Below, piece by piece: positions 34,762-36,981 of a DNA stretch of 64,000 nucleotides; position 1 is the stretch's first letter, and each line of letters begins with the position of its first letter. The notes under the pieces are model-generated. The model was not told the DNA's origin, made no database searches, and saw only the letters and a list, made by a program, of their open reading frames with translations. Position numbers and translations under genes: made by a program. The stretch is from positions 5,208,001 through 5,272,000 of the forward strand of contig NZ_CP042912.1 in assembly GCF_008087665.1 (NCBI RefSeq), written 5' to 3'. Source of the DNA: Mariniblastus fucicola (GTDB lineage: Bacteria > Planctomycetota > Planctomycetia > Pirellulales > Pirellulaceae).

Positions 34762-34793
34762 CGTGGATGCGGCTTTCGGCCACAGCATCTCCC

Positions 34794-34901
34794 GGTGGCA
34801 CAGGCTTCCAGCCTGTGGACGCGCTGGCAGGTGGCATAGGCTTCCAGCCTGTGATTGCGCTGGTTCAGGTGGCATAGGCTTCCAGCCTGTGATTGCGCTG
34901 T
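34794..34901 (+). repeat. Three tandem REP-like copies (family A)
   Basis: Direct copies at 34794-34827, 34830-34863 and 34868-34901, each with AGGCTTCCAGCCTGTG and a shared GCGCTGG tail, only a few bases apart. This is the densest cluster of the family in the window and lies right after thrC. Confidence 0.9.
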
Positions 34902-35001: not shown

Positions 35002-35030
35002 ATGACAGGCTGGAAGCCTATCCCACCTTG
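35002..35030 (-). repeat. REP-like repeat copy (family A)
   Basis: ATGACAGGCTGGAAGCCTAT then CCCACC, inverted relative to the three copies just upstream; it abuts the end of the selenoprotein candidate gene. Confidence 0.85.
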
Positions 35031-35038
35031 GCTCAAAC

Positions 35039-35659
35039 CTATCCAGCCTCGATTTCTCCACCTGCGGAAAACTTCGCTTTCTCCGCAAGCCACTTCCGCT
35101 TCTCAATACGCGACATCCAGCCCTCCGGCTCGACATCCAAACCATCGGCCACGCGATTGATGTAGTTGAAATAGCCAATCACTTGCACCACAACGGTGAT
35201 CTGGCTATCGATCAAACCAAGCGCCTTCAGTTTCCCAACGTCGGTGGCATCCATTTGCCCCGGAGTCAACGTCAGCTTCACCGCATAATCGCAAAGAGCA
35301 CGGTCGACCGCATCAAGCTCGCTGTCGTCGCAAGCCCGATAATCCCAGATCAACTTCTCCGCGACGTCCGGACGCCCTGACTCCTGACCGAAGTCTTCTG
35401 CATGTGAAAGCGTTCAGTAAAAACAGTCGTTGACGTTGCTAACCACCGCCGCCAACATCTCACGGCGAGTTGTTGAAAGCTCATTTTTCCCTTTCATCAA
35501 CGCGCCATAGAAACCCATCGAGCCTTCGCAGCTTTGCGGATCCTGCGACATAACTTTGATGATTCCCGCCACATAACCGGCTCGCTTCATCGCCGACGCA
35601 TAAATACGAGCCAGCCGTCCGGTCGCGTTTTCGGGTTCGATTTGTTCAATAAAAGGCAT
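35039..35659 (-). CDS. AhpD/carboxymuconolactone decarboxylase-like protein, candidate selenoprotein (in-frame UGA)
   Basis: A 206-residue peroxidase-related AhpD-like protein if UGA at 35416-35414 is read as selenocysteine (residue 82). Before it: MPFIEQIEPENATGRLARIY and REMLAAVVSNVNDCFY. After it: TLSHAEDFGQESGRPDVAEK, DAVDRALCDYAVKLT and VVVQVIGYFNYINRVADGLD. The family's redox motif is CxxCxxxH; here it reads C-F-Y-(UGA)-T-L-S-H, so the UGA sits exactly at the second cysteine. The frame continues open for ~124 codons beyond, with family sequence intact. AhpD-type proteins are thiol peroxidase partners. ATG 35659 is chosen because the family start MPFIEQIEPENATG fits; it lies 23 bases after the stop of the gene before it. 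A single stop mutation is the alternative. Confidence 0.8.
35379..35395 (-). promoter_or_regulatory. Possible bacterial SECIS stem-loop after the in-frame UGA
   Basis: Starting 18 bases after the UGA, GACU pairs with AGUC around a nine-base loop UCGGUCAGG containing a GGU, within the 16-37 base window where bacterial SECIS loops occur. An alternative fold is GAC-UUCG-GUC. The stem is short and weak, so this is only suggestive. Confidence 0.3.
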
Positions 35660-35682: not shown

Positions 35683-36981
35683 TCAATTAAACCAAACGGC
35701 GAAGCCAAAGAAGTTACCGCGAAAAACACGTTGGAACTCGGCCCACGTTTCAGGCTCGCTGCACTTTCCCATTTTCACAAACGGCACCGCACCGCTGCCA
35801 TGAATCCACAGCACCAGATCGAAGTCTTCTGGTTCATGAAACACTCTGTGCAGGTCGATGCCGCGTTTCTTGTTCGTGCCACGCCAAAATGGAATCAACA
35901 ACTCGCCATTAAGAATCTGCTCGCCCTCCACCAGAAACTTCTCCCAGGAATCAGTCATGTTCCGTGTAATCCGAACCGCAGCAAACGGATTCGACTGGTT
36001 TGGAGACGGAATCCACTCCTGATCGTCGTCCGTTTCCGCATTGATTCGCTTCCACATCTGGCGGCTGTGCCCGATCGTATTTAGTAAATGCTGGTGCGCC
36101 ACTTTCAGTCGCTCGGGTTCCTTCACCGGGAACCGAATGTTGTGAATCGCCGCGATGATGTCAGCGATCTCCATATAAAAGTCCCTGTCGTCCCCGTCAA
36201 CGTCCGCCTCTTCAGTCAGAAAATCGAACTTCGTTTCTCCCTTCTCAAACATTCGATGCGAGACCACTTCCCAGAACTCGGTCTGATCGTAAGCCAGAAA
36301 AATCTCGCCCAACGAACGCAGCAAACAGCTGTAGCCTCGCAGCCAATCGACATCCGCTCGATCGAAATGGATGGACTTGTCCATCAAGTCTTTCACCCGT
36401 TCCGGATCGCGTCGACCGCCGAGATACTGCATCAACGCCGGACCGAGGTTTTCGTTTGCCCCAGCAACTCCGTCACCATCGAAGTCCAGCTTGATCTGCA
36501 TCACGCGCAGCGGAAGCTTGACGTCGTCTGAATCGATTTTCGCCAGCGTTTTGTCGACTTCTTCGAGATCGTTGATGAAATCCTGAATCATCTCACGGAC
36601 ATCGTCCAGCGAAACGGGCTCCGGATCGGGGTTGTCCGGGACAGGGAGCCGCAGGAACGGGATCTGGCCCATCGCAAACGATCGACCGGGACCAAATCGA
36701 TACAGCGTTTGCCCCATTTTCTCCACGGACTGAAAAAACTGGACAAAGCCCAACTCCATGAGCAACTGATCGTCTTCCGGAGATTTCAACAACGCCGCAC
36801 GAAGCTTCGCCTCGCCATCGGCAAGCTTCCCGGTGGTTAGATACGGGGCAATAATCGTTTCTGCTACGACGACCTCGGTTTGCTGGGCCTTCGCTGACGA
36901 ACAAAGCCCAACCAGCGCAACGGCAAGGCAGAAACCTGCTGTGGAAATCGCAAAAATCAAGCTGTGACGTAATGATTTCAT
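35683..36981 (-). CDS. Secreted protein with calcium-loop-like motifs, function unknown
   Basis: A 432-residue exported protein with signal peptide (HSLIFAISTAGFCLAVALVGLCSSAKA). GGAAGG lies seven bases before the ATG. The N-terminal part resembles TPR-type helical repeats (LADGEAKLRAALLKSPEDDQLLMELGFVQF). Two EF-hand-like loops are visible: DFDGDGVAGANE near residue 170 and ADVDGDDRDFYME near 260. The C-terminal domain (VAVRITRNMTDSWEKF onward) is not recognised. It probably shares a transcript with the selenoprotein candidate that follows after 23 bases. Confidence 0.78.
   Translation of the reverse strand: MKSLRHSLIFAISTAGFCLAVALVGLCSSAKAQQTEVVVAETIIAPYLTTGKLADGEAKLRAALLKSPEDDQLLMELGFVQFFQSVEKMGQTLYRFGPGRSFAMGQIPFLRLPVPDNPDPEPVSLDDVREMIQDFINDLEEVDKTLAKIDSDDVKLPLRVMQIKLDFDGDGVAGANENLGPALMQYLGGRRDPERVKDLMDKSIHFDRADVDWLRGYSCLLRSLGEIFLAYDQTEFWEVVSHRMFEKGETKFDFLTEEADVDGDDRDFYMEIADIIAAIHNIRFPVKEPERLKVAHQHLLNTIGHSRQMWKRINAETDDDQEWIPSPNQSNPFAAVRITRNMTDSWEKFLVEGEQILNGELLIPFWRGTNKKRGIDLHRVFHEPEDFDLVLWIHGSGAVPFVKMGKCSEPETWAEFQRVFRGNFFGFAVWFN

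Follow-up and report, generated by a model that had tools for sequence, protein, structure and literature searches.

A UGA-Interrupted AhpD-Like Gene of Mariniblastus fucicola as a Predicted CxxU Selenoprotein of the TIGR01926 Family

Described AhpD-Like Proteins and Selenoproteins

AhpD-like selenoproteins with a CxxU active site were predicted in 2005 within COG2128, from 27 sequences of the Sargasso Sea survey, according to the available part of PMC1088965. The corresponding part of the 2008 analysis of marine GOS data gives 299 Sec versus 902 Cys sequences for the family AhpD-like 1 (PMC2398784), and excerpts of a later marine survey attribute 9.5% of selenoprotein genes to AhpD-like proteins (PMC9402790). 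A 2026 review, likewise available in part, has the entry "AhpD-like protein, TIGR01926, CxxU" (PMC13188914). The statement in the first-pass annotation, that AhpD-like selenoproteins had already been predicted in marine bacteria, is correct by the accessible text of PMC1088965 and PMC2398784. Selenoproteins have been reported in two planctomycetes (PMC4807772, in excerpt). The term "planctomycet" is absent from the main text of PMC2398784, PMC1088965, PMC9312934, and PMC13188914, and no open literature was found for "Mariniblastus" with "selenoprotein", or for "selenoproteome" with "Planctomycetota".

Among the cysteine forms, Mycobacterium tuberculosis AhpD and PA0269 of Pseudomonas aeruginosa have the relay layout E-x11-C-x-(H/Y)-C-xxx-H, which is shared by the protein described here. 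The PA0269 relay consists of Glu36, Cys48, Tyr50, Cys51, and His55, with spacing equal to that of our protein, and PA0269 reduced H2O2 in assay (these points, like the shared layout, from the available part of PMC3141380). By sequence, the solved structures that come closest belong to peroxidase-related or AhpD-like proteins (2pfx, 6k40, 2oyo, and 3c1l; TIGR01926-like cysteine forms matching with E values between 7.6e-25 and 2.8e-23). The three displayed alignments of these show matching E-x11-C-x-Y-C-xxx-H positions and a cysteine at the predicted Sec position. An AhpD deposited in the PDB (6e8l) is remote (E 0.61).

The gene analyzed here shares with the published COG2128/TIGR01926 CxxU selenoprotein its family model and second-position Sec, and, as in the known form, a hairpin with a G-bearing apical loop lies just after the UGA (available text of PMC1088965, PMC2398784, and PMC13188914). 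It differs from the published members in belonging to a whole planctomycete genome with selenocysteine machinery, the likeness being one of family model and description. On sequence evidence, its predicted membership in this already known selenoprotein family is solidly supported.

Gene Layout and Family Assignment

The window (the whole 64-kb stretch of DNA analyzed, 64,000 nucleotides) is part of a single 6.57 Mb contig. Its features at this locus are as follows.

35039..35659, minus strand: predicted AhpD-like (TIGR01926, peroxidase-related) selenoprotein gene, 206 residues, Sec at 82, TAG stop at 35041-35039
35657..35659, minus strand: ATG start, from the alignments of relatives, most of them matching from residue 1
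35459..35461, minus strand: Glu67, first AhpD proton-relay residue (E-x11-C-xx-U-xxx-H), E in 119/121 UGA-bearing loci
35423..35425, minus strand: Cys79, partner in the CxxU pair, C in 121/121 UGA-bearing loci
35414..35416, minus strand: UGA, putatively read as selenocysteine 82, TGA in 87/90 distinct covering loci
35402..35404, minus strand: relay His86, H in 121/121 UGA-bearing loci
35379..35395, minus strand: bacterial SECIS-like hairpin within the coding region, from the fold and pair counts on relatives

The 121 loci of the relay-residue counts include the window's own gene, and four genes that were fetched twice are counted twice.

The minus-strand frame 35659-35039 reads MPFIEQ...NVNDCFY*TLSHAED...EAG* and is open except for a single internal TGA at 35416-35414. 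This codon corresponds to residue 82 of the 206-residue product, and from there 124 codons lead to the TAG at 35041-35039. The alternative mechanical start is a TTG at 35686. The active-site layout is E67-x11-C79-F-Y-U82-T-L-S-H86, with the UGA where the AhpD motif has its second cysteine. When every TGA codon of the window flanked on each side by 30 or more stop-free codons was scored for codon usage before and after it, and the lower score was used for ranking, this TGA came first. The first-pass annotation had placed an in-frame UGA at the second motif cysteine, followed by about 124 codons of family sequence with no other defect, and had held that a random stop would rarely fall at such a site; the reading frame, the codon count, and the ranking bear these statements out.

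The read-through protein matched TIGR01926 ("peroxidase-related enzyme", NCBIfam) with 134.7 bits against a cut-off of 81.8, and the halves before and after the UGA scored 46.2 and 68.7 bits, both below the cut-off. The Pfam family CMD (PF02627) was recognized only in the read-through protein (24.1 bits, cut-off 23). Membership in TIGR01926/COG2128 is indicated both by the model score and by the relay residues E, C, C/U, and H at their set spacing.

Filing under NF041238 (AhpD_rel_CFYUT) was rejected, the score being 47.1 bits against a cut-off of 175, with residues 31-182 matching only profile positions 177-339 of 357. The name of this model, an "alkylhydroperoxidase-related (seleno)protein", contains the string CFYUT, which also occurs in the window protein; in the accessible part of the 2026 review, NF041238 is hypothetical protein 1 of the Sargasso Sea (PMC13188914).

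The AhpD-like gene adjoins threonine synthase in its own genome and in ten other loci of the same genus, which says nothing on function. Between the two genes, at about 34790-34895 and 35005-35026, lie short intergenic repeats of the cacaggctggaagcctatgccacc type; read by eye, they comprise three direct copies and one inverted copy. The upstream gene (35683-36981) encodes 432 amino acids. A Pfam search assigned it to no family, and tblastn at 1e-8 against the other fetched loci searched gave no match. Its place directly upstream is taken by a hydrolase gene in L051, the 85%-identical relative.

Predicted Function

The gene probably encodes a working AhpD-like, peroxidase-related (TIGR01926/COG2128) selenoprotein with Sec at predicted residue 82, a reading to which we assign a probability of about 0.95. 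It is supported by the active-site layout, the Sec machinery of the genome, the conserved UGA, the constraint on both sides of it, the co-varying hairpin, and the co-occurrence with SelA. In the proposed mechanism, the ribosome would meet the UGA at codon 82, and an mRNA hairpin at bases 19-35 past that codon, its 5-base loop containing G, would recruit SelB carrying selenocysteyl-tRNA-Sec. Selenocysteine would then be inserted at position 82 and translation would continue for 124 codons. The product would present a Cys79-Phe-Tyr-Sec82 redox pair beside His86 and Glu67, in the AhpD proton-relay layout, and would most likely reduce peroxides or hand electrons to a peroxiredoxin.

We infer both the insertion of Sec in M. 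fucicola and the enzymatic role. The latter, as a Cys-Sec peroxide reducer or electron carrier, is drawn from the family and the active site, and the most likely role is that of a selenium-boosted thiol redox enzyme acting in peroxide reduction or electron transfer to peroxiredoxin. The gene neighborhood contains no partner gene pointing to function. A selenoprotein that is not a peroxidase, using its CxxU pair for another thiol-disulfide or selenium-handling reaction, is possible but rather unlikely. Three of the five best solved relatives carry the name "uncharacterized peroxidase-related protein", and the substrate-binding sites of AhpD-like members were not known in 2011 (PMC3141380, available part), both of which leave room for such a reaction. 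Against it, all five relay positions are found at the exact spacing, including Tyr81 at the position of Tyr50 in PA0269.

The SECIS-Like Hairpin

The RNA fold of the window gene contains a 6-bp stem, GACUUC/GGAGUC (35395-35390 paired with 35384-35379), closed by the 5-nt apical loop GGUCA (35389-35385); the hairpin occupies bases 19-35 after the UGA. Taken alone, the hairpin of this gene was not significant in shuffling (z -1.11, 29/200 shuffles as good) or in synonymous recoding of the gene (p = 0.107). An Rfam search of the SECIS region found no SECIS model, the only match being nadA (14.6 bits; gathering score, 37.5), and a search of the whole window returned only a tRNA. The first-pass annotation had described a GGU-bearing loop 18-35 bases after the UGA and had proposed folding the bases that follow the codon. 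The loop proved real, at 19-35, and the fold yielded the stem with its GGUCA loop, but neither significance in the single gene nor a match to the Rfam SECIS models was obtained. Support for the hairpin of this gene comes from the family.

Synonymous recoding of 78 distinct UGA sequences gave a mean z of -1.80, with p <=0.05 in 37 of the 78, versus a mean z of +1.15 for three Cys sequences. Compensatory changes were counted in two alignments that both contain L039-L045 and from which two distant UGA paralogues (L048 and L049) were omitted; a further alignment, A3, comprises 33 fetched sequences. The alignment of closer sequences (A1; 49 distinct rows) has 90.1% of its hairpin cells paired, with a covariation score above that of all 500 shuffles. 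Double changes in A1 numbered four cells (12/500 shuffles as high) and one pair (400/500 as high). Sliding A1 to the +1 register gave eight doubly changed cells versus four and a covariation score of 0.129 versus 0.122, an excess that we attribute to rows following the +1 register. The alignment of more distant sequences (A2; 42 distinct rows, with a loop of six) has 91.7% of its hairpin cells paired, falling to 28-58% when the register is slid. Its 15 doubly changed cells, spread over two pairs, were reached by 0/500 shuffles, while its pairs with a double change and its pair types were not above the shuffles (446/500 reach both).

Within bases 13-42 after the codon, the longest stem had at least six pairs in 92 of 108 distinct UGA sequences versus 5 of 18 non-UGA sequences, the latter being 16 Cys sequences and two with Leu codons (TTG and CTC). 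From these comparisons, the predicted hairpin is conserved in relatives with compensatory changes, in two co-varying loop registers; a small G-containing apical loop just downstream of the UGA, conserved in relatives, is what is expected of a putative bSECIS element.

Four records labeled Roseibacillus or Akkermansiaceae (L058, L060, L064, and L074) have another predicted minimum-energy stem, GCGGCCG...CGGYCGC, which lies earlier. The hairpin may be shifted in these sequences, or the usual stem may be bulged.

Selenocysteine Machinery of the Genome

The first-pass annotation had proposed searching the genome for selA, selB, selD, and tRNA-Sec, and all four were present. A tRNA-Sec scored 70.1 bits (gathering score, 47) and was the sole match above that score, the 13 further matches all being weaker and falling below it; ARAGORN also called a tRNA-SeC with anticodon tca. 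SelA (full length, 555 bits), SelB (356 bits), and SelD (265 bits) all exceeded their curated cut-offs. The machinery genes are scattered over the contig, and none adjoins the AhpD-like gene.

The formate dehydrogenase alpha gene (L162, G000:C1:3928447-3930459, minus strand) has one TGA inside the match, in the string CAATUHAPTVAGL, which we take to be the classical FdhA Sec site. A SECIS_3 match starting at this TGA scored 34.3 bits, below the gathering score of 63. With its TGA in this string, FdhA looks like a second selenoprotein gene, so that the genome appears to use Sec decoding at another site as well.

The SelD match (G000:C1:4276027-4276941, plus strand; L019:328-2520) forms the C-terminal part of a 730-aa frame, the first half of which resembles an NADH dehydrogenase-type flavoprotein (named by eye); a cysteine stands in CLGCGGK. 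This frame resembles the Ndh-SelD fusions described for the GOS data in the available part of PMC2398784.

General reassignment of UGA, or plain read-through with an amino acid such as Trp, would also open the frame, since a frame that is open when TGA is taken as sense cannot by itself separate Sec from Trp. Reassignment was nevertheless rejected as very improbable. UGA looks like an ordinary stop in the window, because it ends 9 of the 31 longest non-overlapping ORFs (mechanical ORFs, not all proven genes), and the catalytic Cys site, the conservation of the hairpin among relatives, and the complete Sec machinery all speak for selenocysteine. The inference of the first-pass annotation that this organism decodes UGA as Sec is supported by the machinery, together with the conserved UGA and the constraint downstream of it.

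Conservation of the UGA and Constraint on Both Sides

Matches with E values of 1e-15 or below came from 38 of 147 genomes of relatives (own included); among the 42 matches listed, 37 had at least one in-frame TGA and five had none. The loci fetched from these relatives, the window's own among them, carried TGA at the motif in 27/30. A search of a genome collection returned 65 loci; 64 of them cover the motif (L115 does not and was left out), and TGA was found in 64/64. The motif in that search pattern was written with Cys and so could not favor TGA. Pooled, the two sets gave TGA in 91 of 94 covering loci, TGC in two, and TGT in one. Four pairs in the pool represent the same gene fetched twice (L022/L051, L025/L059, L038/L075, and L043/L097); they are counted twice in 91/94, and once in the hairpin and tree sets when the compared stretches were identical. 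With such genes counted once, TGA was present in 87/90 loci with the window's own gene and in 86/89 without it. The window's own gene (L021) is included in the 147-genome, 91/94, phylum, A1, recoding, tree, and relay counts. The occurrence of TGA, TGC, and TGT in one column agrees with the Cys/Sec interchange among homologues for which the first-pass annotation had proposed to look.

Against the 85%-identical relative L022, dN/dS was 0.055 before the UGA (81 codons) and 0.042 after it (115 codons), rough values since dS is near saturation; dS was infinite in many of the wider comparisons. Where it was finite, dN/dS (before/after) was higher downstream for L030 (0.204/0.415), L056 (0.115/0.218), and L093 (0.257/0.352), and lower for L039 (0.303/0.257). 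Protein identity before and after the UGA was similar in 13/13 pairs (e.g., 0.85/0.84, 0.62/0.54, and 0.54/0.61). A decayed half downstream of the UGA is excluded by these sequence comparisons. Relatives with the same UGA and decayed downstream sequence, which the first-pass annotation had named as grounds for abandoning its reading, were looked for in the same comparisons: the relatives have the UGA, and their downstream sequence is conserved.

Two matches among the relatives carry extra stops. One (G054:C58:21781-22350) has one TAG and one TAA besides one TGA, and the other (G076:C25:30335-30793) has a second TGA and one TAG besides one TGA. These are perhaps decaying copies, or the match perhaps ends past the gene.

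A pseudogene, arising by a recent nonsense mutation in a cysteine-type AhpD gene, would account for the stop that the standard code places in this frame, and the same genome does hold a stop-free, TIGR01926-like Cys gene (L147, 69.3 bits, below the family cut-off). Against it, the same UGA is present in 86/89 distinct covering homologues, and constraint after the UGA is about equal to that before it. The shared UGA and the intact downstream sequence in effect refute this reading, which we consider extremely improbable. L147 itself (G000:C1:1934427-1934915, plus strand) has the motif NGCTYCMAAH, with TGC at the Sec column. A sequencing or assembly error at a TGC or TGT codon, for which one base change would suffice, was rejected as having a negligible chance: TGA stands at the same codon in other assemblies, including the 85%-identical L022/L051, the Cys forms are distant and less often have the long stem there, and a base error is very unlikely because 86/89 fetched covering homologues have TGA.

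Distribution of the Sec Form

TIGR01926 was matched at 1e-15 in 213 of 392 sampled Planctomycetota genomes. Of the best 150 matches from these genomes, 138 had one in-frame TGA and 12 were stop-free; among 30 loci fetched from those matches, TGA lay exactly at the motif in 29 and TGC in one. SelA was found in 112 of the 117 Planctomycetota genomes with a listed UGA match (absent in five) versus 130 of the 275 others, some of which have weaker TIGR01926 matches outside the best 150. The association has an odds ratio of 25 (Fisher p 5e-23, a statistic that ignores relatedness). Planctomycetota genomes with only stop-free matches among those listed had SelA in 4/10.

In the relatives, SelA was present in 28/33 UGA-bearing genomes (own included). 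Four of the five that lack it have tRNA-Sec, including G029 (99% complete); G024 (71% complete) has a UGA match and neither SelA nor tRNA-Sec. Five relative genomes have only stop-free forms, two of them with SelA and tRNA-Sec and three with neither.

A maximum-likelihood tree was built from 134 sequences, 116 UGA and 18 non-UGA, with L132 (the same gene as L148) omitted. One side of a branch with support of 99/90 holds 109 rows, the window gene among them, and 109/109 are UGA; they span Planctomycetota, Verrucomicrobiota, Fidelibacterota, Chloroflexota, Actinomycetota, Acidobacteriota, and Myxococcota/SAR324. Outside it fall the 18 non-UGA rows, many of them long branches; some of these mix with the remaining seven UGA rows. 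The tree, in which the root serves only for drawing, needs six changes between UGA and non-UGA labels, three of them forced by well-supported branches. Its sequences were sampled by similarity to a Sec-form query or as best-scoring matches, and contigs of metagenome bins can be misnamed. It seems probable that a large multi-phylum branch of TIGR01926 is effectively fixed for Sec, and that in Planctomycetota the Sec form is the rule and the Cys form the exception. The completeness of Sec retention on the 109-row branch is the less expected feature. Neither this completeness nor dominance of the Sec form in Planctomycetota was found in the available portions of PMC1088965, PMC2398784, PMC9402790, and PMC13188914.

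At L156 (G217:C155:92700-94150), two tandem paralogues, joined in the tree with support of 100/100, have TGA at the motif in one and TTG (Leu) in its neighbor. This pair may represent a Sec gene losing its catalytic residue.

Significance

For M. fucicola, a redox gene that the standard reading splits in two would be intact, and standard gene-calling could split it; the gene would join FdhA as a second gene decoded with Sec in the genome of a planctomycete. If the Sec form is indeed the rule, gene calls that stop at the UGA would truncate most TIGR01926 proteins in Planctomycetota. A multi-phylum branch that apparently keeps Sec, with no drift to Cys, may offer a test bed for the selenium need of enzymes.
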